DNA of 64,000 bases, taken from positions 186,001-250,000 of the forward strand of contig NZ_VUOS01000002.1 in assembly GCF_009829325.1 (NCBI RefSeq), given 5' to 3'. Below, piece by piece: positions 7,738-21,245 of this stretch; the stretch's first letter is position 1, and the number at the start of each line of letters is the position of its first letter. The translations under genes were made by a program, and so were the position numbers. The notes beneath the pieces are model-generated. The model ran no database searches. It was not told where the DNA came from and saw only the letters and a list, made by a program, of their open reading frames with translations. The DNA is from Nocardia sp. CY41 (GTDB lineage: Bacteria > Actinomycetota > Actinomycetes > Mycobacteriales > Mycobacteriaceae).

Positions 7738-8322
7738 CTACTGAAGAGCACGCATCAGAACATCGAACTGTGGAGCATCGGGCCAATCCGGTCGGAGAGT
7801 GCCGACGCGGTACCACCCCCACCGGCGATATCTGTCGTACGCCCGGCGATTGTCCAGGCGCACCAGCAGCGTTGCCCGCTGCTCCGGCCGACCCGCGAGC
7901 AATTCGTCGTGCAGGGCACGAGCAACTCCCTTGCACGTGAACTGTTTGCGCACCATGATCTCGCTGAACGCGAATGTGCGTGAGCCGTTCTCAGCCGTGA
8001 ACGCCGCATGGTCGTCGTCATCGAGCCGCAGCCCGTCCCACCACGCGGTCTTAGCGGTGAGCGGCCAACCCCACGCCTGCCCGCAGAGTTCGCCATCGAG
8101 ACGGGCGATCACCAACTCGAACGCACCGGCGCGGGCCGGATCGGTGTAAGCGTCGAAGCGGCGCATGAATGCTTCGGGCGATTCGAACTCCTCACCGGAC
8201 TCGATCGCATCGACGTAGGAGTCCCGGAAGATGCGTTCGACGTCATCGCGCAATTCGCGGGCCTGGTCGGCTGTGTAGTGCTGGAAATCGAGGTCTGACA
8301 TCGCGGAATGCTCTGAGGTCAT
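7738..8322 (-). CDS. GNAT-family N-acetyltransferase
   Basis: The 194-residue protein has the GNAT acetyl-CoA-binding region. There is a strand with FAFSEIMVRKQFTCKGVARALHDELL (the R/Q-x-x-G-x-A loop, here CKGVAR) at about residues 115-140, then TLLVRLDNRRAYDRYRRWGWYRVG near the C-terminus. The substrate is unknown; GNAT enzymes acetylate amines of antibiotics, proteins or small metabolites. The gene overlaps the upstream regulator gene by 4 nt (ATGA), so the two are probably translationally coupled. GNAT enzymes are often paired with helix-turn-helix regulators of this type in actinobacteria. Confidence 0.82.
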   Translation of the reverse strand: MTSEHSAMSDLDFQHYTADQARELRDDVERIFRDSYVDAIESGEEFESPEAFMRRFDAYTDPARAGAFELVIARLDGELCGQAWGWPLTAKTAWWDGLRLDDDDHAAFTAENGSRTFAFSEIMVRKQFTCKGVARALHDELLAGRPEQRATLLVRLDNRRAYDRYRRWGWYRVGTLRPDWPDAPQFDVLMRALQ

Positions 8323-9653
8323 ACGGTAGTCGTCCTTCCTGCCAGCTCATCGAATCGTGTCGAGAATTCTTCGGACCGGCCTTCCGTTGCTACCCGTACT
8401 GGTTCGAGCAGACGCAGTGTGCGAGTGGAGTACACGGAGTTCTCCAAGTCGGCGAGAACCGACATGCCTTCCTCCACCGCAGCGCCGATGTCGCCCAGAT
8501 CAGCCAGCGCCGCCGCAGAACCCGCGCGATAGTTCGCAGAGTTACGGGCACTGGCGCTATCCACGGCCAAACCAGAGCACAGGTCTGCCGACTTTGCGTG
8601 GTCACCCAGGTGGCCGAAGCCGCGGGCTTCATGGCTTCTGATCTCGGTGGCATTGACGAACCGCAACCATGGTGGACAGTCCTCGCGTGACTCATGGTCG
8701 AGCGCGAAATCGAGCTCCCGCCAGGCGGTGGCCATGGCCTTACCGAAGGCCATGCGGTCGCAGAGGATTCCGTACGCCTGCGCCTCGCGGGTCGCGATCA
8801 GGGCATGGACTCGACCCGGTGCGTGGCCGCGTGTGAGCGCCCGAGCGCGGTCGGCGAGAGCGAGGGCGCGATGCGGATTCGCTTCGCCTGTGCGCTGCCG
8901 TGACAGCGCCATCTGTGCGGCGTTGAGACAGACATGCACAGTGAGTTCGTCATCGCCGGCTTGGCTGGCCAGCGCGAATGCATCGGCGTAGCAACTACGG
9001 GCAAGAGAATACATATCGGCGTCATAGGCAAGCCAACCCGCGATAGTCGCGAGTTCCCCTGCGGCACTGGTGAAAGCGCGGCCAGCTTCCTCAGAGAATG
9101 CGCAGGTATCCAAGAGGTGTTTCGCTGCCTCGAGTCCTTGAACTGCGTCGCTCACAAGGGCAGCGCCACCGACGACTTGCTCGCGGCGTCCGAACTCGGC
9201 CGCAAGCGCGTCGATCCTGTGCGCGTCGGCGATCCCGATCCGAGCCGGAGCTCGATCACCACCTGCCGCGAAGAACGCGGCACTTAGTAGCATTCCGAAT
9301 TCGCGTCGCTTCACAATATCCTCGACTCCCGGCGCACTATTTTGACCATCCGAGACCAGGCTAGCGCTTGGTATGTCGGCGAAGCGCGGGTAAACAAGCG
9401 GGACCGTAGCCTCGTGTACGGAGTTGATCTCGGCGCGGAAACGAGCGCGTTGTTCGTCGGTGAGTCGAGCGAGCTCGGTGTCCAACGCTTCAGCTGACTC
9501 ATTCCGAACCGGCTTCTCGCGGGTTGCCTGCTCCCACTTACGAATCGTCGCCGTTGTGAAGCCCACCCTCTCGGCGAACTGCTCCTGCGTCAGCCGTAGG
9601 GCTGCCAAGCGAAGCGCTTTGACCTCCACCTTCGTCCACTTGCTGACGATCAT
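8319..9653 (-). CDS. XRE-family regulator with C-terminal TPR-like domain
   Basis: The product is a regulator of about 444 residues. The N-terminal helix-turn-helix (residues 8-45) has LRLTQEQFAERVGFTTATIRKWEQ, a classic XRE/Cro pattern. The rest is helical, with TPR-like repeats (ELATIAGWLAYDADMYSLARSCYADAFALA and related stretches). Actinobacteria contain many such XRE-TPR proteins, some linked to development and secondary metabolism, and the TPR part may bind a peptide or another protein. ATG at 9653 is preferred over GTG at 9659 because AGGGGG lies 6 nt before it. The gene is divergent from a set of three small genes and co-directional with the GNAT gene, with which it overlaps. Confidence 0.85.
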   Translation of the reverse strand: MIVSKWTKVEVKALRLAALRLTQEQFAERVGFTTATIRKWEQATREKPVRNESAEALDTELARLTDEQRARFRAEINSVHEATVPLVYPRFADIPSASLVSDGQNSAPGVEDIVKRREFGMLLSAAFFAAGGDRAPARIGIADAHRIDALAAEFGRREQVVGGAALVSDAVQGLEAAKHLLDTCAFSEEAGRAFTSAAGELATIAGWLAYDADMYSLARSCYADAFALASQAGDDELTVHVCLNAAQMALSRQRTGEANPHRALALADRARALTRGHAPGRVHALIATREAQAYGILCDRMAFGKAMATAWRELDFALDHESREDCPPWLRFVNATEIRSHEARGFGHLGDHAKSADLCSGLAVDSASARNSANYRAGSAAALADLGDIGAAVEEGMSVLADLENSVYSTRTLRLLEPVRVATEGRSEEFSTRFDELAGRTTTV

Positions 9654-9844
9654 GCTCACCCCCTGTTTGCCCCTCCAATGCCTGCTGGCGCAAGCGTATT
9701 ACTTCTGTATAAGTCCCGTGTCTGGGATCGCGGGTCTGATCTGGCGAAGCTGAAAGCAGCCCCGCCGCCGGGTTGAGCTCGGGCCTCCACCGACTCCCCG
9801 GCGGCGGGTGTCGACCACGTTGAACCAGGCGGAGGGACACCCGA

Positions 9845-11024: not shown

Positions 11025-11855
11025 CTATGGGGCAGGTGATCGTGAACCACCGAATACGCGCGCCGCGTGGATCGCTGCTTCTTCGACCGATATCTGCCCG
11101 CCTGCCGACAGCACGCCGACGACCGTTTCTTTCGCGATCTCTACGAGCTCTTCATCCAGAGCAGATTCGTCCAGCGCTTCGAAGACGACGAACGGAGCCA
11201 GGCGGAGCAATCGCTTGAGGAAGTCTCGCAATATGTCCCGCTCCGTCATCCCCTTCAGGTCCATGCGCCGCCATACTCGCAGGATCGACTTGATCAAGTG
11301 CGGACTGCCACCCAGGGCGGCGCGTCGCGCGTAGATCTGGTCGAATGCCGCTTCGCCGAGGACATGCAGCGCCGCATACGGTTCGGAATCGGCCGGGGAA
11401 TACACCAGATGTGCTCGCCACCACATCCGGCCGAGCACATGACGAGTGAGATCGGAACCCAGGACGCGGTCGGCCGGCGGTCTCGGATAGCGCCAGTGAG
11501 CGACGTCGGGGAGAACGATCAAGGCCAGAAACGCCCAGACGTCGCCGGCGGCAGCTTCTGCGGGGGCGATGCGCATTTCCTTGTGCAACGCAACGGCGAG
11601 GTTGAGATCGAAGGTAACCTTCTGGCGCGAATCAGGTGGCTCCGGGAAGCCGGACTCCTTGGCCAGGTCGATGACGATGTCGCGAAGGAACTGTAATTTG
11701 TCGCGATCGACACGGGTACCGCCGGTCGCGACGAACACCGCGGATTCGTCGGCGAGGGCCCAACGGTTGTGCAGGTCGAGCGGATTGAGCTCCTTGTATT
11801 CGGCCGCCAGTATTTTGGCACGGTGGCGGAGCAACCGAGGGTACAGAAGTGTCAC
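11025..11855 (-). CDS. DUF6339-like protein, last gene of the defence-type operon
   Basis: The 276-residue protein starts at a GTG overlapping the previous stop (GTGA). I recall proteins beginning like this one (LYPRLLRHRAK...) in the DUF6339 family, encoded next to Z1 and PD-(D/E)XK genes; this is from memory and not checked. It is mostly helical, with WRYPRPPADRVLGSDLTRHVLGRMWWRAH in the middle. No nuclease, ATPase or methylase motif is visible. Its position at the end of a tightly overlapping operon argues that it is a structural or adaptor subunit of that system. The end of the gene converges on the small plus-strand genes to the left. Confidence 0.72.
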   Translation of the reverse strand: MTLLYPRLLRHRAKILAAEYKELNPLDLHNRWALADESAVFVATGGTRVDRDKLQFLRDIVIDLAKESGFPEPPDSRQKVTFDLNLAVALHKEMRIAPAEAAAGDVWAFLALIVLPDVAHWRYPRPPADRVLGSDLTRHVLGRMWWRAHLVYSPADSEPYAALHVLGEAAFDQIYARRAALGGSPHLIKSILRVWRRMDLKGMTERDILRDFLKRLLRLAPFVVFEALDESALDEELVEIAKETVVGVLSAGGQISVEEAAIHAARVFGGSRSPAP

Positions 11856-12748
11856 GCGACCCCCTCGAAGATTTTCACGGCCGCCTGCAGTTCTGAGGCG
11901 AACAAGTTCGGGGATTCCTGTGCCGCCAGTCTGACGTCCGTGATGGACCGACCCGGGAACAGCCGTCCGAACAGTTCCTGCAGCGTGGCACCCAAGGTTT
12001 CATCGATGTAGTGCGAGTCGTCATCGAAGTCGTTCAGGCGCACGGCGTGATCCACCATGGTGCGAGCCACGTCGGCATAGAGAGCCGACAGTGCGATCTT
12101 GTCTTCGATGCGGGGACTGCTCGCGCGTTGGAGGGCTTCGGTGACGACGGTCTTCTTCTCATTGACGAGCAGGAGGAGAGAGCCCATCGTCGCCGCGTCG
12201 AGGTTCGTGCCGATCTCCAAGTGCCACGCAGCGTCGCCGGGATAGTTGGTTCGGTCGAAATCGACTATCGCGATTGGAAATTGCGGAGCGTCACCTTGAA
12301 GGCGAATTTGACTCCGATCACTCCACAGGACCGAACCACCACGGCGAGGCACCACCGGTCGGTCACTGCCGTGTCGGCGTCGCGCAAGTACCAGGGCGGT
12401 GTCCAGGAGAACGACACCACCGAGGTCTGCGCCCGGAAGATCGGCACGTAATTCGACTTCGCCGTTCTCGGGAACCATCGTTCGCATCACTGTTCCCCTG
12501 AGTTTCGACCCCGTCGATGTCCAGATCGCGGCCAGACTGAGTTCGGTATTCGGGTCCAGTGTCGATTCCGCGAGGGCGCGATGCAGATCGACCTTGATAG
12601 TGCGGCGCAGACTCAGTGTCGTCTGATAGTCCCAGTGGGGATAGGACTCCGGCAGTGGCATTTCGTTGCCGTCGACCGACAGCAACCACTCACCTGCCTG
12701 TACGGCGGCCGGCGATGGCTTCTTGTACGGAAGGACGCGATGGGCCAT
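11852..12748 (-). CDS. Uncharacterised protein of the defence-type operon
   Basis: The 298-residue product starts MAHRVLPYKKPSPAAVQAG, with the ATG overlapping the previous TGA (TGATG) and the end overlapping the next gene by 4 nt. It looks mainly like beta structure in the first half (DYQTTLSLRRTIKVDLHRAL, LSLAAIWTSTGSKLRGTV) and helical in the second half. No catalytic motif is recognisable. Being wedged between the GHKL ATPase and the DUF6339-like gene with overlaps on both sides, it is probably an obligate component of the same complex. I know of no function for it. Confidence 0.68.
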   Translation of the reverse strand: MAHRVLPYKKPSPAAVQAGEWLLSVDGNEMPLPESYPHWDYQTTLSLRRTIKVDLHRALAESTLDPNTELSLAAIWTSTGSKLRGTVMRTMVPENGEVELRADLPGADLGGVVLLDTALVLARRRHGSDRPVVPRRGGSVLWSDRSQIRLQGDAPQFPIAIVDFDRTNYPGDAAWHLEIGTNLDAATMGSLLLLVNEKKTVVTEALQRASSPRIEDKIALSALYADVARTMVDHAVRLNDFDDDSHYIDETLGATLQELFGRLFPGRSITDVRLAAQESPNLFASELQAAVKIFEGVA

Positions 12749-14742
12749 CAGCCGACCGCCTCTGTGTAGAGCACGATGTCGGTCATGGTGTCGGCGGCAG
12801 GTTTCACCACGGCCTTCCAGATCTGGCCGTCGCCGCCTTCGATGACGTACGACGGAACCTGATGGATCTCGCCGTGCGGATCCTGCCAACCGACGAGGCC
12901 TGGCATATCGGCGCCGGCAGGCGGATCCATCTCCAGGCCGCCGTCACTGTTCAGGGCAACGGCGAGATCGACGGTGATACGTTGCGGAATGCCGACCGGC
13001 ACACGGAAGCGCTGCACCACTACGGCATTCCCCCACAGTTCCTCCGGCTCCGGATCACCGATGTATTCGATCTTCGGGCGTCGTCGTCGCTGTCTGACAG
13101 GCTTCGCGGCCTCGGCATACGGATCCGTGTCGGGAGAGTTCGTGTTCTGCTCGTAGCCATGCGGGCCAGAAGGCTCGTGTTCCGCGATGCTCGCAGTGTC
13201 GAGAGTTCCCCCTTCTTCGATTTCATTGACATCCTGTCGTCGACCACTCGGGCGACGTCCAGGTGTCGGCCGAGCAGGCGGCGCGGTGTCGCCTGGTTTG
13301 CCGTAGTCGGTGGCCGCACCGATACCCCACGCGCCGCCCACGAGAGGCGAGAGACGTTCGCTAGCTGCCCCGAGCGACACTTGTGCGACCTCGACCCCAC
13401 TGCTGCCACGCGGGCCGAATATCCGTTCGATGGCCTCTTTCATGCGTACGAAGGTCATCTTCACAAAGGAGTAGTCAGGATAATCCAGCGACTGGTAGTT
13501 CCAATTGTCGTGGGTCGGCGGCTCAGCCGCCGCATACGCTTCGTCCATGGCGGTATCGGCTCGGAAGACACCTGCATAGGCGGAGTACTCGCTCGCGGGT
13601 TTGGGTCCGAGCCAATACGTCACCACGAGTTCGGCTGGGCGCATAAGGCAGACGTGATGCACCATCCCATTCTCGAACCCAGCCATACGTTCGGCGTCGG
13701 TGGGCTCGAACCGCTGCGCCATCGACTGGTGCAGCGCGAATCGCCCGAGTAGCTTCTTCGGCCTGCGGCAGTGTAGTTCTTGCGCCTCGCTGCCCACCAT
13801 TTTGCGGTAGGCAGAGACGAACAAGCGTAGGGACTTCATCTCGGCGGGTTGCGGCACCTTGTACTCGATACCGTCGCAGGTTACGGAAAACCGCATCGGA
13901 ACAACGCCGTTGCCGTCTGGCATCATCTTCGGCCACAACTGGCATGTAATCGTCTCGGCGAGATATGTGGCTACCGAGGCAGGCTCGGCGCCCTCCAAAT
14001 CGGGGTCGAGAATGACAATCGTCGTCCCCGTTTCAGTGTCTTCGAACGGTCGCAGTCCGAGTTTCCGCGCCATCGCGTCGGCCTCGGCGCCGACGAGCGG
14101 CTCGATCACGTCCCCAGAAGTGTCTCCCCACCAATGCCTGCCGGTATAGCGGCGATCGCGGCCGGACTCTCTCGCGTCATAGCTTTTCCACAGCGCCGCC
14201 CCCATCAATCGGGTCTCGTAGCGACCCTCGTACTGGCAGCGGGTATGAACCAGAATCGTTCCCGGTCTCGAGGCAAGGTAAAGGATCCCTTTGCCGAAAC
14301 CGTAGGTGCCGCCGCCCAGTGCCTGGTCACGTGGTTCACCGATATTGCGGAGGAAAGCAACGAAGTCGCGGCGATCATCGGTGACCGCATCGGCTCGGGT
14401 CGGTCCACCCAGCCCCCGCGTTCCCCGATCCGAGATCGACAACACCCGGATGGTGGGCTGCTGCAATGAGTCACGAAGGGGAAGAACCTGCTTGGCAGGA
14501 GCCCGACGCAGCAGATTGTCCCTCCAGGCCGGCGCGTCGGCGGCGCTGACTGTCTGTAGATCGATGCGGTAGTCCACCGAGACGCCGTCACTGCGACGAG
14601 CATCCCAGCTGTTCTGCGCCGATTCGCGGACCAGGATGGTCAGATGATCGAGTTGGGGCTTGCCGAGTTGATTTCTTATGCCCTCCGCAGCGCTGGCGCC
14701 TTCCGGAGGAAAGGGCTGGGAAACCCAGGCAGGCAGGGTCAC
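12748..14742 (-). CDS. GHKL (HATPase_c) ATPase, MutL/MORC-like
   Basis: The 664-residue protein has the ATP-binding GHKL fold at its N-terminus. The N-box is VRESAQNSWDA with Glu-40 and Asn-44, the G1 box is ISDRGTRGLGG at about 103-113 (the D-x-G-x-G type), and the G2 box is GGGTYGFGKG at 143-152. These are the features of gyrase/Hsp90/MutL-type ATPases. Iyer, Abhiman and Aravind described such MutL/MORC-like ATPases in restriction-type operons with Z1 ATPases and PD-(D/E)XK nucleases, which matches the neighbours here. The GTG start overlaps the upstream nuclease stop by 4 nt. It probably senses or clamps DNA and couples ATP binding to nuclease activity. Confidence 0.88.
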   Translation of the reverse strand: MTLPAWVSQPFPPEGASAAEGIRNQLGKPQLDHLTILVRESAQNSWDARRSDGVSVDYRIDLQTVSAADAPAWRDNLLRRAPAKQVLPLRDSLQQPTIRVLSISDRGTRGLGGPTRADAVTDDRRDFVAFLRNIGEPRDQALGGGTYGFGKGILYLASRPGTILVHTRCQYEGRYETRLMGAALWKSYDARESGRDRRYTGRHWWGDTSGDVIEPLVGAEADAMARKLGLRPFEDTETGTTIVILDPDLEGAEPASVATYLAETITCQLWPKMMPDGNGVVPMRFSVTCDGIEYKVPQPAEMKSLRLFVSAYRKMVGSEAQELHCRRPKKLLGRFALHQSMAQRFEPTDAERMAGFENGMVHHVCLMRPAELVVTYWLGPKPASEYSAYAGVFRADTAMDEAYAAAEPPTHDNWNYQSLDYPDYSFVKMTFVRMKEAIERIFGPRGSSGVEVAQVSLGAASERLSPLVGGAWGIGAATDYGKPGDTAPPARPTPGRRPSGRRQDVNEIEEGGTLDTASIAEHEPSGPHGYEQNTNSPDTDPYAEAAKPVRQRRRRPKIEYIGDPEPEELWGNAVVVQRFRVPVGIPQRITVDLAVALNSDGGLEMDPPAGADMPGLVGWQDPHGEIHQVPSYVIEGGDGQIWKAVVKPAADTMTDIVLYTEAVG

Positions 14743-15755
14743 ACATGCTCCTCGATCATCACTCGGATATGTCGTTCCACTTGACTGTTCTCCATCGGGC
14801 TTGGCGTGTCTCCCGACAGGTCGATCGTGTAGTCGACATCGCGCACGTTAGAGGAGATCGCGGCCGCTGCAAGGTCGACGGTGGTCAGTCGTGGAAACGC
14901 GACATCGACGTTGTACCAGCGCTGTTCGTCGATTGCATAGCGTGCGTGGCGGTAATGGTCGTCGTCGGCTTTGCGGTAGCCGATCGATGCCAGTTTGTTG
15001 AGTACGGCCGTCTCGTCGTCCGATAGTTCGAGTACGCGATCGATCAGGTCGAGAAAGCCGATGCCCTCACGCACGGTAGGTTCCAGGCGAAGCCAGACCA
15101 GACCCAAGAAGCCGTTGATCGGCGGCTCCAACTGGTCGAGGCCGTGGATGCGAATCTGGCGCCCGTTAGGATTGGTCGAGGTTTTCACCTCGAGAGCTCC
15201 CGCGTCGGTCGCGAAATCATGACGATGGCCTGACGGGCCTCGCCACAACAGGTGAGCGCTGCTGTCCTGCTCGAGTAGCCGCGCCAATATGATCAGTTCA
15301 CCGAACAATCCAGCTCGTTGCTCCGGGCCCAAGGGCGGACCCGGATTCTGAAACAGCGCCTTCCACCGATCGAGCACCCGGTTGAGAACCTTCAGCGGAT
15401 TCTCGGGCGCCGCCTCGGTCGCGATCAGGACATCAGCGCACAGCGTCGTGAAGATATCGCTGAGATCGGATCGCAGACAGACGAGATCGGCGTAATCGTG
15501 CCTTGTCGTGTCGTCGTCAAGGGTCCGCTTGTGCAACATCAGGACCGGTCCGTTGAGCCCTTTGCGAACATTCTGATGCGCTGCGACCGGCACGAGCAGG
15601 TGCCGGTTGCATGCGCTGTCAATCGCGGCTGCCAGCGATCCAATCGGCGTAGGCACGGGTAGCTGCGATACGGCAACGACCGACGACATCGACGGTGGGC
15701 GATGTTCGAGGCGTCGCCAGTGATCGTCGATAACCTCTCTGATCTCTGCCGGCAT
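14739..15755 (-). CDS. PD-(D/E)XK nuclease (DUF4420 type)
   Basis: The 338-residue protein has a PD-(D/E)XK-like core in the HRHDFATDAGALEVKTS segment: Asp-180, Glu-189 and Lys-191, with a further acidic residue at Glu-153 (FGELIIL). This matches the Z1-associated restriction endonuclease family (PF14390/DUF4420). It is expected to be the DNA-cutting subunit of the system. The ATG at 15755 shares a base with the preceding TGA, and the gene overlaps the following GTG by 4 nt. An upstream in-frame ATG at 15842 would lie inside the Z1 gene and is unlikely. Confidence 0.87.
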   Translation of the reverse strand: MPAEIREVIDDHWRRLEHRPPSMSSVVAVSQLPVPTPIGSLAAAIDSACNRHLLVPVAAHQNVRKGLNGPVLMLHKRTLDDDTTRHDYADLVCLRSDLSDIFTTLCADVLIATEAAPENPLKVLNRVLDRWKALFQNPGPPLGPEQRAGLFGELIILARLLEQDSSAHLLWRGPSGHRHDFATDAGALEVKTSTNPNGRQIRIHGLDQLEPPINGFLGLVWLRLEPTVREGIGFLDLIDRVLELSDDETAVLNKLASIGYRKADDDHYRHARYAIDEQRWYNVDVAFPRLTTVDLAAAAISSNVRDVDYTIDLSGDTPSPMENSQVERHIRVMIEEHV

Positions 15756-18325
15756 CAGATGTCCTCTGCCTCGAGGGCGCTGAAGTCCTCCTCCTCGATC
15801 TCGACGCCGGACAGGTCTGCCGAGATGTAGTTGGCTTCCCACGCGACGGTGCTGTCGTCGTCTTTGGGCTTCGGGAACACCAGACCCACACCGATGACAT
15901 GCTCCGGTGCGTTCAGTGGTTGACGCTTGTCTTTCGAGGGCTCGGGCTCCGAAATTTTGTCGATCGGATACAGCACCAACAGTCCGGCCTCGGGTTGTTG
16001 TGCAGCACGAGCCTTCTGGATTTCTCCTTCGGTCGTGCTGGTCGTGACTCCTTCGAGGTCTAGACCTGCGTCACGACGGCTCATCAGCGTCTTGATGTCC
16101 GAATAGTCTGAGCCAGAGGAGAATTGTGATCGTACGATTGTTCCGACGCGAACCCCTGGTGCGAAGTCGAACTGCTCTGGACTGTTCTCGGCTGGTTTCC
16201 CGACCACCGCGATGTTCCACCGCCGCAGCGTTCCTGCGTTTCGGATGCGCTTCTCGATGTATCCTGCCATCAGTTTCGCGTCGCACTCCTGCGACCGTTC
16301 ATGGAACTGGTAGTTCCTCAGGAACTCCAGTACGGCATCGCTGGACACATCTCTAATGAGATAGCGTCCATCCGTGAAACTCCCCTCGACACTGCCGATC
16401 CGGACGGCCTCGCTCACGAGCTTGCGTGCTGCCGATTGATTCTGCCGCAGCCACTCGGATTCCAGGCGGAAGTATCTGGTCTGGACACGTTGTCCGCCAT
16501 AGGACGACGACGCCGACACCGCGTCCTTCATTTTCGCGGCTGCCGTCACGCGCAGTGCCGGGTGGGTCCGCAGACGCACCGCGAAGTTCATCGGTGTCTT
16601 GCCCTCGGTCATGTAGACGTCGATGTCGCGCCGCATCTCGGTCTCGACCGTCGCCAAGTGGCGGAACCAGTCCTCGAGTTCCTTGGTCATCCAGATTCGC
16701 GGCAGGTCCGCGTAGCCCTTGCGGTAGCCGAACCAGCGGCCCATCTGTAGCAATGTGTCATACGTCGAGACCGAGCGCACGAAGTAACTGACAGACAGAC
16801 CCTCGAGCGTCAGACCGCGCGAGAGCGTGTTGCCGCCCACCGCGATCGCGACCACCGGACCATTCTCGTAATCGAGGCGGTCGGTGCTCTCCGAGTTGTC
16901 CATCACCACGCGGCAATCACGCAGTACGCCTGGCATTTCTGCCTCGAGTTCCTCGAAGGAGACGAACTCCTCGCGGAACTCGGCAGCAGGCACGCGAGAC
17001 GTCTCCTCGTCCCACAGCGCACGCAACTCGCTCTGTATCGTGGGATCCTCCAGGTTGCGTCGCACCTTGGCCCGTAAAGCCAGCAGAGGATCCCGAAAAC
17101 TGTTGTGCACGGCGGTGCGAACGCTGGTGTGGATCAGCATCGTACAGTGCGGGTTACCCCCGCCGCGCACGCGACGCGCAGCGGTCGTCAGCCAGAAGTA
17201 CAGCACCGCGCGACGCAAGGTGTCCGTAATAGTCGGACAGAACCCTTCTGCGTCCGCCCTGGTCTTCGGTCGAACGAGTTCCACATCGTCGTCGGGGACA
17301 GTGCGGATCATGTCGTAACCGTCATCGACGTCATTAGGATCTTCGCCATCCAACGCGTACCGGCCGAACAGCACTTCGGTACCGAAATGGCCTTGTGGTT
17401 GAGGAAGATTCACGATGAAGTGTTCGGGATACAGATCCTCAGCGGCAGGGTTGATCAGCAGGTTCGCGAACGGTGAGGCCGTATAGCCGACATAGGCCGA
17501 CTTCGGCAGTGTGTTGAGGATCTGGCGGATCAATGGGTTGATCGACTTCGTCGCGACCGTCGCTTGGTCGGCCTCGTCATCGATGATCAACGCCGGGCAA
17601 TCCGCCAAGTACTCCGAAGCGTCGCCGAGCCACTTCACCAGTTTGCGCAGCACGGTGGCGTTCTTCTTGACGACACAGAGGACGTGGGTCTTGTTCGACT
17701 TGCCGAAGAAGCTGGCGGGGTTCGCGGTCGGGCGGAAATCATGATCCAGGTCCGTGATCTGGGACCACAGCGTAGGGTTCGGCTCCACGAGCTGCTGAAC
17801 CAAGCGGGCTTGAGTCTGTCTGCGGAGGCCGTTGTGAATCCCCGCGAGGACGATGAACAGCTTGTAGCCGCGATCGGCCGCCTTGGCCATCACGGCGGTG
17901 AAATTGGTGGTCTTGCCGGACTGCACGTAACCGACGACGAGGCCACGCGTGGAGAAGGCGCTCTGCCTCGGATGCTGGAGGAGTGAGACGACTCGCGTCG
18001 AGGACCCGTCCAAGCTATCGATGGACGTCTGCGGCCATCCATCCTTGGCCAGCCCGGCGGTAATGGCCGACCACAACTTGTCATCCGGATGCGGCCCGGC
18101 ATACCAGGTCTCGTAGTTGTCGATCACGACAGACGGTGGCTCTCGCATCTCTGCGATGCGCACGACTTCCCGCTCGTGACGGTCCACAATTCGCTTGATG
18201 ACAGCATCGGGCGTGGAAAACAGCCGGAGCTTCTTGATCGCCTCCGCCGGAGTGTAGGTATCGAGCAACAACCTGAATACATCGAACAGTTCGTCTTGCT
18301 CGTCAATCACATCGCTCACCGGCAT
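15755..18325 (-). CDS. Z1 domain (PF10593) superfamily 2-like ATPase
   Basis: This large 856-residue ATPase has the Walker A motif GYVQSGKTT at residues 132-140, the DDEAD Walker B box (IIDDEAD, 247-253) and a C-terminal motif VI-like QMGRWFGYRKGY at roughly 525-536. These are the hallmarks of the Z1 family of helicase-like proteins from restriction-type operons. It probably translocates on or remodels DNA for the nuclease. ATG at 18325 has GGGAG immediately before it with no spacing; a GTG at 18319, 6 nt after GGGAG, is the more likely true start and would remove two residues. The end overlaps the nuclease gene by one base. Confidence 0.92.
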   Translation of the reverse strand: MPVSDVIDEQDELFDVFRLLLDTYTPAEAIKKLRLFSTPDAVIKRIVDRHEREVVRIAEMREPPSVVIDNYETWYAGPHPDDKLWSAITAGLAKDGWPQTSIDSLDGSSTRVVSLLQHPRQSAFSTRGLVVGYVQSGKTTNFTAVMAKAADRGYKLFIVLAGIHNGLRRQTQARLVQQLVEPNPTLWSQITDLDHDFRPTANPASFFGKSNKTHVLCVVKKNATVLRKLVKWLGDASEYLADCPALIIDDEADQATVATKSINPLIRQILNTLPKSAYVGYTASPFANLLINPAAEDLYPEHFIVNLPQPQGHFGTEVLFGRYALDGEDPNDVDDGYDMIRTVPDDDVELVRPKTRADAEGFCPTITDTLRRAVLYFWLTTAARRVRGGGNPHCTMLIHTSVRTAVHNSFRDPLLALRAKVRRNLEDPTIQSELRALWDEETSRVPAAEFREEFVSFEELEAEMPGVLRDCRVVMDNSESTDRLDYENGPVVAIAVGGNTLSRGLTLEGLSVSYFVRSVSTYDTLLQMGRWFGYRKGYADLPRIWMTKELEDWFRHLATVETEMRRDIDVYMTEGKTPMNFAVRLRTHPALRVTAAAKMKDAVSASSSYGGQRVQTRYFRLESEWLRQNQSAARKLVSEAVRIGSVEGSFTDGRYLIRDVSSDAVLEFLRNYQFHERSQECDAKLMAGYIEKRIRNAGTLRRWNIAVVGKPAENSPEQFDFAPGVRVGTIVRSQFSSGSDYSDIKTLMSRRDAGLDLEGVTTSTTEGEIQKARAAQQPEAGLLVLYPIDKISEPEPSKDKRQPLNAPEHVIGVGLVFPKPKDDDSTVAWEANYISADLSGVEIEEEDFSALEAEDI

Positions 18326-18547: not shown

Positions 18548-19705
18548 TCAGACGAAAAGCTGGCCGACTCGTGCGAAATGGTCCAGCGGGGCTGAGTCGC
18601 GGGTGTCGATCCACGGACGATCGACAACCTTCCGCGCATCCTCGTGACTCACTTGCTTCCCCAGGGCAGCCGACAAGACGTGCAGAGCCAGCACGGGCGG
18701 GATCGCATTACCGATCTGCTGGGCGATGTCGTTGCCCGACCAGGGATAGTCGAGGGGAAACGTCTGCAGTCGTCCTGCCTCAGCCAGGCTGAACCGTGGA
18801 GTCTCGATACCCGCACCGTCGACGACCTTGTTCCGAGACACCTTGCCGGTGATCGTGGCCGACGGCTCTCGAGAATGGCGACGACCTCGCAACTTGGGGT
18901 TGCCACCTGTACCGTAGTTCGAGACGACGTAGAAGTCGTATCCGCGATCGAGCGCAGCGGCCATCGTTTCCCAGGGCAGGAGATCGGGCTTACCGGCTGT
19001 GCGTTCGACACCTTTGCGGTAAGGCCGATGGGTGGCTTCTGGAAGCTTGCGCTCACCTTCGAGGCTGGCGATCAAAATGGCTCGCCTGCGAGTCTGTGGA
19101 ACGCCGAACTGCTCGGTGCGCAGTACATCGCAGGCGACGTGATACCCGATCTTCTCCAGAACGGTGCCCATCGCTTGCCAGATAGGCAGTACCGCCGGAA
19201 CCTGTTCCAGCACAATGACCTTGTAAGGATCGTCGTTGCTGTGCGCAGCCAATGCCCATCGCAAGGGTTCCAGGACGAGGCCGGTCCGCTCGTCCTTCAA
19301 GGTTTCCAGGTCGGCAACCACGTCCTCACCGTCACCCATTCGGACGACGTAGCTCAGAACCTCATCGAGTGCCTTGCGGCCTGCTCCCGAACCGGCGACG
19401 GTGAACGTCTGGCAGGGCGGCCCGCCGGCGAGTATCCAGGCGCTCGGCGCGGTCTCGGGGCCGAAGTCGCGTACGTCGTGCGGGCGATCGTTGAGACCGG
19501 CGGCGGATCTTGTCGCGCATGCATTTCGGTCCCACTCGAATCCGTAAACGCTCAGCCCCAACCACCGCGCCGCCACATCGAGCCCCCCGGGTCCCGCAAA
19601 CAGGTCGATCATGTCCACCTGATGGGGTCGAGGTTGCTCGTGTGGATCGAAGGGCATGACTCGCGATCTTAGCGGTGTGGCGCGGCTTGGCTGGGTCGCG
19701 TTCAA
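18548..19705 (-). CDS. DNA (cytosine-5) methyltransferase, with catalytic Cys
   Basis: This 385-residue C5-methyltransferase has motif I DLFAGPGG (about 34-41), motif IV GGPPCQTF with the catalytic Cys-98, motif VIII QTRRRAILIA (204-213) and motif X QIGNAIPP. The usual motif VI ENV is EQV here (E167-Q168-V169); the protonating Glu is kept. It should methylate cytosine C5 in the site protected from the associated nuclease. The TTG start overlaps the preceding gene by 4 nt; an in-frame ATG at 19657 is an alternative. Possible division of labour with the preceding methylase-like gene is discussed under findings. Confidence 0.9.
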   Translation of the reverse strand: MNATQPSRATPLRSRVMPFDPHEQPRPHQVDMIDLFAGPGGLDVAARWLGLSVYGFEWDRNACATRSAAGLNDRPHDVRDFGPETAPSAWILAGGPPCQTFTVAGSGAGRKALDEVLSYVVRMGDGEDVVADLETLKDERTGLVLEPLRWALAAHSNDDPYKVIVLEQVPAVLPIWQAMGTVLEKIGYHVACDVLRTEQFGVPQTRRRAILIASLEGERKLPEATHRPYRKGVERTAGKPDLLPWETMAAALDRGYDFYVVSNYGTGGNPKLRGRRHSREPSATITGKVSRNKVVDGAGIETPRFSLAEAGRLQTFPLDYPWSGNDIAQQIGNAIPPVLALHVLSAALGKQVSHEDARKVVDRPWIDTRDSAPLDHFARVGQLFV

Positions 19706-20730
19706 GAGGTGGTCAACACAGCCCTCAGAGCGCTCCCGACCGCGAATGCAGCCGGTGGCGGTGTCGCGTTTCCCACCTGGCGATATCGGGCCGTTTTGCC
19801 GCCTTCGATGCGCCAGTACGGGGGGAACCCCTGCAATATGGCGACCTGCTCGATGGTGAGTTTCAGCATATGCTCGGGGCCGAGTGTCGGATCCCAGACG
19901 AAGTCGGCGGCTGGTAGTTCGTCACCGATCGAACGAGCGTTGACCCCGATCTTCGCCCAGGCTCGAACAGACCCTTGCGGCCCGAGGTCCCCGCCACCGC
20001 GGTCCCACGAGCCACCGACGATGGTGGGTGCAATTACGTGCGCCTGGGCCGCCCACTCCTCGACCTGCAGCCAGCCGCGCGCACTCATGGATGGGCGCAA
20101 CACGGTGCCGACTGTAAGGTTCAGGCTCGGCGGCGGAGCTGTGAGGGTTCTCTCGAAGCGGTCGACGCCTCCATCGCGCAGGGCGACCAGCATGCCCAGC
20201 AGTCGGTGCTGCGGTACCCCGAAGTCTCGCGCGTCGATCACCAGCCACCGGTACTCGTAACCAGCAGAGTCGAGGTACTTCTCGACGCAGGAACGGTTTT
20301 CACGGTAGTCCGGGCGGGTGACCATGTCGGGTACATTCTCGACCAGCAAGGAACGCGGTCGCAGTTCCGAGGCCAATCGGCCTGTTGTCTCGAGTAACTC
20401 CAATTCCCAGCCGCTGCCGCGTTGTCTCGACGCCGTTGCCGCAGATTTCACTCTCGGAAGGCCTGCGGCTAAAAGATCGATATCGATCGATCTCGGTAGA
20501 TCCAACCGGGGTTCGAACTTCAGCAGGTCTGCGTTGAGCACATTCCAGTGAGGCCGATTCGTCCGCAGTGTCGCGCACGCGACGTCGCGATTGTCGAGAA
20601 GCAGAATAGGGTCGAATCCCGCCTGCTCGAGGCCGAGAGCGAGTCCCCCCGCACCTGCGCAGCACTCCACCGAACGCATTCGCCGACCCGTGGGCACCAG
20701 CCGAACGTGGGTATGGTCTGTCCGGGGCAA
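19702..20730 (-). CDS. C5-methyltransferase homologue lacking the catalytic Cys
   Basis: The 342-residue product has the C5-methyltransferase fold. Motif I is CAGAGGLALGLEQAGF (about 24-39), motif VI is ENV (131-133), motif VIII is FGVPQHRLLG, motif IX is LQGFPPYW, and motif X is QVGNATPPPAA. However, the PCQ motif IV is replaced by GLPRVKSA (about 90-97), so the nucleophilic Cys is absent. It is therefore probably catalytically inactive alone, and may be a specificity or stabilising partner of the downstream active methyltransferase, with which it overlaps by 4 nt. The TTG start is supported by GGGGAGG 7 nt upstream. The frame is intact, so this is not a decayed gene by frameshift. Confidence 0.88.
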   Translation of the reverse strand: MPRTDHTHVRLVPTGRRMRSVECCAGAGGLALGLEQAGFDPILLLDNRDVACATLRTNRPHWNVLNADLLKFEPRLDLPRSIDIDLLAAGLPRVKSAATASRQRGSGWELELLETTGRLASELRPRSLLVENVPDMVTRPDYRENRSCVEKYLDSAGYEYRWLVIDARDFGVPQHRLLGMLVALRDGGVDRFERTLTAPPPSLNLTVGTVLRPSMSARGWLQVEEWAAQAHVIAPTIVGGSWDRGGGDLGPQGSVRAWAKIGVNARSIGDELPAADFVWDPTLGPEHMLKLTIEQVAILQGFPPYWRIEGGKTARYRQVGNATPPPAAFAVGSALRAVLTTS

Positions 20731-20906: not shown

Positions 20907-21245
20907 TCAGCCACCGGATGATGTCGAAGCGGCCCGCAATGCCGCCGCGATCTGGACGAGGCCCAGGTCGACGACGACCTCATCACCATCCCAGACCCCG
21001 CGCGTGGTGATTGCGAGGCCGATCAAAGCCAGCTCGTTGGCGTCGTCACGAAGTTCGTCCTCTTCACGGGTCTCGTTCTCGATCTCGCCCGTTTCGTCGC
21101 GGTCCCAGGCGGCAACCGCGGACTCAGCCGCGGACCTCGGCAACCGCACGCTGATCCGAGTGATCTGGGGATCGAGATGGGTCCCGATCGTCGCCAGCAC
21201 CTCCCGGTCCTGCTGGTACCGCACATATTGGCCACGATCTTTCAC
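20907..21245 (-). CDS. Small acidic hypothetical protein
   Basis: The 112-residue product from a GTG start is acidic, with a run of Glu/Asp in the middle (DETGEIENETREEDELRDDANE). It begins RGQYVRYQQDREVLATIGTHL and ends in a hydrophobic helix (VVVDLGLVQIAAALRAAS). No known motif is visible. It precedes the methyltransferase genes on the same strand with a gap of about 176 nt, so it may be the first gene of the island or an independent neighbour. No strong ribosome binding site is visible. Function unknown. Confidence 0.5.
   Translation of the reverse strand: MKDRGQYVRYQQDREVLATIGTHLDPQITRISVRLPRSAAESAVAAWDRDETGEIENETREEDELRDDANELALIGLAITTRGVWDGDEVVVDLGLVQIAAALRAASTSSGG

Follow-up and report, generated by a model that had tools for sequence, protein, structure and literature searches.

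A paired cytosine-C5 methyltransferase homologue without its catalytic cysteine as a putative site reader in actinobacterial GHKL/DUF6339 systems

A stretch of 64,000 nucleotides from Nocardia sp. CY41 (NCBI RefSeq assembly GCF_009829325.1, contig NZ_VUOS01000002.1, positions 186,001 to 250,000; the window, in whose coordinates positions are given below) carries two adjacent genes for homologues of DNA cytosine-C5 methyltransferases, here called M1 and M2, in an operon with genes for a GHKL-type ATPase-like protein and a DUF6339 protein. By its sequence and predicted fold, M1 is a C5-methyltransferase that lacks the catalytic cysteine; it is retained across its relatives, and a methyltransferase with an intact cysteine motif lies near it in each locus examined. 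With slightly less than even confidence, it is proposed that M1 reads DNA sites without catalysis for a restriction-like GHKL/DUF6339 system predicted to act against phages, in which M2 is predicted to protect the host. An earlier description made from the letters of the window (the sequence-only reading) had pointed to this pair. Its interpretation held in part: a dead M1 is preserved beside an intact partner and its suggestion of a reader is favoured, while its complementary motif loss and its obligate heterodimer were not borne out.

Sequence motifs of the two proteins

Both genes are uninterrupted minus-strand frames over the extents that had been given for them (Table 1). The Pfam model PF00145 matches M1 with 121.9 bits and M2 with 100.1 bits (cut-off 22 bits). 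M1 retains motif I (CAGAGG), the ENV of motif VI, the PQxR part of motif VIII and motifs IX/X (LQGFP, GNATPPP), and its structure model aligns to M.HhaI, M.HaeIII and DNMT1. Translation confirmed GLPRVKSA at the place of the PCQ motif; in the model, this loop of motif IV has little order. M1 has the fold and motifs of an active PF00145 enzyme but not the cysteine. The earlier statement that its remaining motifs are intact is correct for motifs I, VI and X and for the PQxR of motif VIII, but not for the second arginine of QxRxR in motif VIII (residue 178), which is gone from M1 and is present in 16/16 solo Cys-bearing relatives.

M2 carries both features of a C5-methyltransferase that were looked for, PCQ with the catalytic cysteine and the motif VI glutamate, and its AlphaFold2 (AF2) model has a pLDDT of 86.5. 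The GGPPCQTF and EQV (LEQV) motifs reported for it were confirmed. The EQV had been taken as a loss complementary to that in M1; since it keeps the catalytic glutamate and is invariant across the 22 M2 rows of alignment A3, it is better regarded as a subfamily signature than as a second defect. The reported 4-nt overlap of the frames applies if M2 begins at the TTG at 19705. The three closest relatives of M2 in the database have 369 aa, and the one aligned starts at the Met corresponding to the ATG at 19657; with that start, the frames would be separated by a 44-nt gap instead.

Table 1. Features of the methyltransferase pair and of the operon in the window
Feature	Position	Strand	Basis or remark
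M1, Cys-less C5-methyltransferase homologue	19702..20730	-	342 aa, TTG start, GGGGAGG ahead of start
M1 motif IV position, GLPRVKSA, residues 90-97, with Arg93 in place of the catalytic Cys	20440..20463	-	translation-checked
M1 motif VI ENV, residues 131-133, retained	20332..20340	-	translation-checked
M1 target-recognition core, residues 234-265, APTIVGGSWDRGGGDLGP...	19936..20031	-	32-residue window with the lowest entropy in the Cys-less group
M2, partner C5-methyltransferase, predicted active	18548..19705	-	385 aa from TTG, or 369 aa from ATG at 19657
M2 motif IV GGPPCQ, catalytic Cys98	19409..19426	-	translation-checked
M2 motif VI EQV, residues 167-169, Glu kept	19199..19207	-	translation-checked
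Operon gene	15755..18325	-	family searches
Putative PD-(D/E)XK protein DUF4420 (PF14390; MzaD-like)	14739..15842	-	family searches
GHKL-type ATPase-like protein	12748..14742	-	ESAQNSWDA and DRGTRGLGG motifs; weak PDC-M33A match, 33.9 bits
G6, gene of no matched family between the GHKL and DUF6339 genes	11852..12889	-	homologues exist
DUF6339 protein (PF19866; PDC-M33C-like)	11025..11855	-	family searches

Conservation of the cysteine loss

A search with the M1 protein scored 7999 candidates and found 4820 relatives, of which the best 120 were read together with the query. The motif IV cysteine is absent from all 121 rows and GLPR is present in 119; a second alignment placed Arg at the position in 120 rows and Gln in one. 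GLPRVKSA is therefore not a chance replacement, and the conservation that the sequence-only reading had suggested checking does exist. The core Cys-less group has Arg in 57/57 aligned rows (56 loci), seven early-branching loci have Arg (four) or Ser (three), and the solo relatives have Cys in 16/16. The aligned residue is Arg in L010 and L011, and a fragment in L059, too short for the alignment and the tree and omitted from both, reads AGLPRVRSAAT.

The core group retains the motif I glycines (G26 and G28 in 57/57 rows, G29 in 55/57) as well as Glu/Asp131, Asn132, Gln174 and Arg176, and has lost Arg178. It is very improbable that M1 still methylates, by way of another nucleophile or on another substrate: the glycines, the Glu and Asn of ENV and the QxR are indeed kept, but there is no other clade-specific conserved cysteine (Cys24 and Cys52 are common to the solo Cys-bearing relatives), Arg178 is lost, motif X Asn321 is His in 28/57 core-group rows, and the disorder of the motif IV loop in the model points the same way.

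M1 is under purifying selection. For 15 locus pairs, the NG86 estimates of dN/dS, which are rough as several dS values exceed 1, were 0.07-0.20 for M1 and 0.08-0.30 for M2. The catalytic loop is under looser constraint in the Cys-less group, with a column entropy of 0.97 bits versus 0.32 in the solo relatives, and the most conserved 32-residue window of the group is the recognition core. Three residues of this core that differ from those of the solo relatives (see below) show that it was altered and afterwards fixed in the Cys-less group.

Pairing with an active partner

Fifty-three loci came from a pattern scan of the genome collection, and 14 of the 394 genomes in a class sample proved to have a Cys-less M1 (at least 390 bits); after removal of three copies with identical M1 (L064, L068 and L070, copies of L041, L045 and L048), 64 distinct loci remained. 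A partner with an intact PPC motif is present in all 64, being of the EQV type in 51 and of the classic ENV type in 13. It is likewise present in 17/17 further clade members that were fetched (15 new, 12 Cys-less and three Cys-bearing, once L216 and L218 had been dropped as copies of L053 and L054). Hence every Cys-less M1 locus examined (76/76) has a partner with intact PPCQ no more than about 20 kb away, in agreement with the pairing that had been anticipated. In 53 of the 64 loci the two genes share a strand, and their frames overlap or are separated by no more than 110 bp. Eight partners are about 17 kb away at the opposite end of an island, six of them on the opposite strand; the partner in L043 is convergent at 1.2 kb and those in L047 and L060 lie at 1.8 kb.

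Solo Cys-bearing relatives were read in 16 genomes. In 15 of them, the 20 kb around the gene on its contig (less where a contig ended earlier) contained no further PF00145 match; the remaining one has another copy of the solo type. A search of the 394 genomes for EQV-type M2 gave 17 with a match at E <=1e-50, where G378, G122 and one of two matches in G277 are weaker relatives in which EQV-type motifs were not seen. The other 15 genomes contain a Cys-less M1 in seven cases (G000, G089, G250, G252, G261, G332, G385) and none in eight. Among these eight, G118 and G314 have GHKL and DUF6339 genes, G259 and G369 have both as well as a short remnant of M1 close to M2, and G281, G293, G277 and G346 showed neither GHKL nor DUF6339 in the 20 kb read. 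The loci L139-L147 contain the M2 type without an intact Cys-less M1, and no strong M1 match was found in those genomes. M2 is therefore not dependent on M1, and no M1 was seen without a partner; the definition of an obligate heterodimeric methyltransferase, in which neither subunit occurs alone, does not describe the pair.

Several arrangements may be recorded here. In a locus of the Pseudonocardiaceae (L043:9905-12086), two Cys-less M1-type genes in tandem are found with one convergent M2. The islands L112-L119 measure about 17-20 kb, with M1 at one end and M2 at the other; the space between them contains DrmA and DrmB in L052 (island L112), and TmtA-like and GHKL proteins are encoded near M1 in L030 (island L113). 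In L011:12340-18828, genes for two helicases, one TmtA-like (ResIII) and one GajB-like (UvrD), come after M1 and M2, in a genome without a DUF6339 match. A short C5-methyltransferase pair (235 aa with PPCQ, 337 aa with SPSC) is present twice in G000, 57 kb apart (C98:92364-94229, which is L151, and C98:149856-151721), with phage-like neighbours.

Association with DUF6339 and the heterodimer alternative

Each of the 14 genomes of the class sample that carry a Cys-less M1 also has a DUF6339 gene within about 16 kb. In seven loci from two separate clades, DUF6339 and M1 form a single open frame; fusion of DUF6339 to M2 was found in 0/64.

These results bear on the heterodimer, the main idea of the sequence-only reading. 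In this alternative M1 would serve M2 as a regulatory or specificity subunit, stimulating or directing methylation by that enzyme in the manner of DNMT3L or METTL14. This is a possible but rather unlikely explanation. The constant and mostly close pairing would be expected of it, as would the intact PPC of every partner and a partial tree-distance correlation of 0.33 between M1 and M2. Against it stand the M2-type enzymes that occur without M1, by which an obligate heterodimer is not general, the six switches of partner type on the M1 tree, and the fusion of DUF6339 with M1 and never with M2. Weak and inconsistent distance correlations, together with the four loci where the pair occurs without DUF6339, mean that M1 may nevertheless act in this way.

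Evolutionary history of the loss

The first tree had 80 rows, and a branch with 100/100 support set the 64 Cys-less ones apart from the rest. A second search with early-branching forms as queries (best 120 of 7999) added 112 new proteins, with Arg (46), Ser (43), Cys (21) or Lys (2) at the cysteine position; L229 has Ala. On later trees, built without the motif IV columns, four changes between Cys and non-Cys are needed. Forcing the 49 non-Cys rows together cost 52.6 log-likelihood units with a p value of 0.006 in the approximately unbiased test (p-AU), which is somewhat optimistic because the group was chosen after the tree had been seen, and a single loss was rejected. The 21 Cys-bearing proteins of the clade comprise 13 that branch first and eight in a single clade together with Ser and Arg forms. 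The three Cys-bearing loci read (L213-L215) already possess a partner methyltransferase, DUF6339 and GHKL, and Arg178 is already missing in 12/21 Cys-bearing members. Pairing thus preceded the loss, the active site decayed in steps, and the nucleophile disappeared more than once from M1 but not from the partner.

Relaxed constraint by itself, in which one active site of a redundant pair has drifted while M1 keeps a minor structural role in a complex, is an unlikely explanation. The varied replacements that followed pairing (Ser, Arg, Lys, and Ala in L229) and the stepwise decay seen at Arg178 are consistent with it, but it accounts poorly for the strong purifying selection on M1, for Arg in 120 of the 121 nearest rows, for a most conserved window that coincides with the recognition core and for a cysteine kept by the partner in every locus read.

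Proposed function

What we infer beyond the retention and pairing of M1 is the following mechanism. M2 would mark the host DNA, and M1 would seek unmarked sites and hand them to the ATP-dependent module. Since a reader able to methylate would conceal incoming DNA, loss of the chemistry of M1 would be favoured. This mechanism would account for what the comparisons above show of M1: it keeps its recognition core, has dropped its chemistry repeatedly, depends on an active methyltransferase of no particular type, and is mostly linked to GHKL/DUF6339. According to their titles, solved structures include M.HaeIII C71S bound to DNA and M.HhaI R165N or R165A with DNA; loss of these two kinds of residue does not, therefore, by itself preclude DNA binding. 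More tentatively, actinobacterial GHKL/DUF6339 systems may have repeatedly selected for the conversion of a writer into a reader, M1 serving the effector as its methylation-sensing specificity subunit and any site-matched active C5-methyltransferase providing protection.

Several points weigh against a site reader. The recognition residues Lys243, His244 and Arg253 of the solo relatives are mostly replaced by Asp/Glu/Asn, Arg and Gly, respectively, so specificity may have shifted or DNA contact weakened, and the Asn321 often lost from motif X is likely at the S-adenosylmethionine (SAM) site. The link to DUF6339 is not absolute, since L011, L032, L055 and L060 have the M1/M2 pair without a DUF6339 match in the genome and L217, L220 and L229 show no DUF6339 in the stretch read. 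Tree distances of M1 correlate only slightly better with those of DUF6339 (r 0.49) than with those of M2 (0.39), and partial correlation reverses the order (0.14 for DUF6339, 0.33 for M2). Some GHKL/DUF6339 systems lack M1, and another site reader would be needed there. Repeated loss is also expected from plain relaxed constraint on a redundant active site.

If M1 is a site reader, it would answer how restriction-like systems with GHKL ATPases and helicases but no visible specificity subunit find unmethylated sites, and the database name "DNA cytosine methyltransferase" for M1-type proteins would be misleading. The Cys, Ser, Lys and Arg forms would then offer a natural series for studying when a methyl writer becomes a reader.

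Other genes of the operon and its surroundings

Pfam searches gave no match for the protein encoded at 12748..14742, which is putatively of the GHKL type from its motifs and from the label in the sequence-only reading. No family match was found for G6 in three libraries. Upstream of M1, a short open frame (20907-21245, 112 aa) also had no family match in three libraries, and a gene for an NsdA-family regulator (NF053720, 160.8 bits) lies downstream of the operon at 8319-9659.

Comparison with known systems

In outline, the operon type is already known (PMC9523054, PMC2292703, PMC8011034); no description of a retained, repeatedly disarmed methyltransferase was found in searches of openly licensed papers. 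For one close known system, the part of the description available names a single cytosine methyltransferase and no Cys-less second one, and writes DUF4220 where PF14390 of the window is DUF4420. The restriction-modification (R-M) operons of MORC/paraMORC proteins are similar in that GHKL ATPases adjoin superfamily II helicases, C5-methylases and predicted nucleases, and differ in that their main text mentions no inactive methylase (PMC2292703). The ATP-dependent R-M systems CglI and NgoAVII have a single methyltransferase active alone and a PLD nuclease with a B3-like DNA-binding domain (PMC4267653), whereas the window operon has a dead methyltransferase and gave no PLD or B3-like family match in the library scans. 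DISARM resembles the M1/M2 islands L032 and L052 in the presence of DrmA and DrmB, but is described, in the part of the source available, with DrmMI and/or DrmMII and no Cys-less twin (PMC9142583). Among the matches listed for ten window proteins, DrmA and DrmB were not found, the only DISARM hits being DrmMII cross-matches of M1 and M2.

The best PADLOC matches of M1 are the DruM models of Druantia (258.3 bits), which may reflect methyltransferase kinship only. The window operon does not belong to MZA (mzaABCDE) by the NCBIfam equivalog cut-offs, as its MzaC and MzaD matches lie far below them (391.4 versus 1500 and 87.6 versus 420 bits). The other mza genes encode sigma factor, AIPR and MutL-like proteins. 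DNMT3L and METTL14 are proteins of the methyltransferase fold that have no catalysis of their own and work with an active relative. The analogy to M1 is limited in that both are eukaryotic and have a fixed partner, whereas M1 switches partner type; if M1 is a reader, it would be a bacterial counterpart of these eukaryotic pseudo-methyltransferases.
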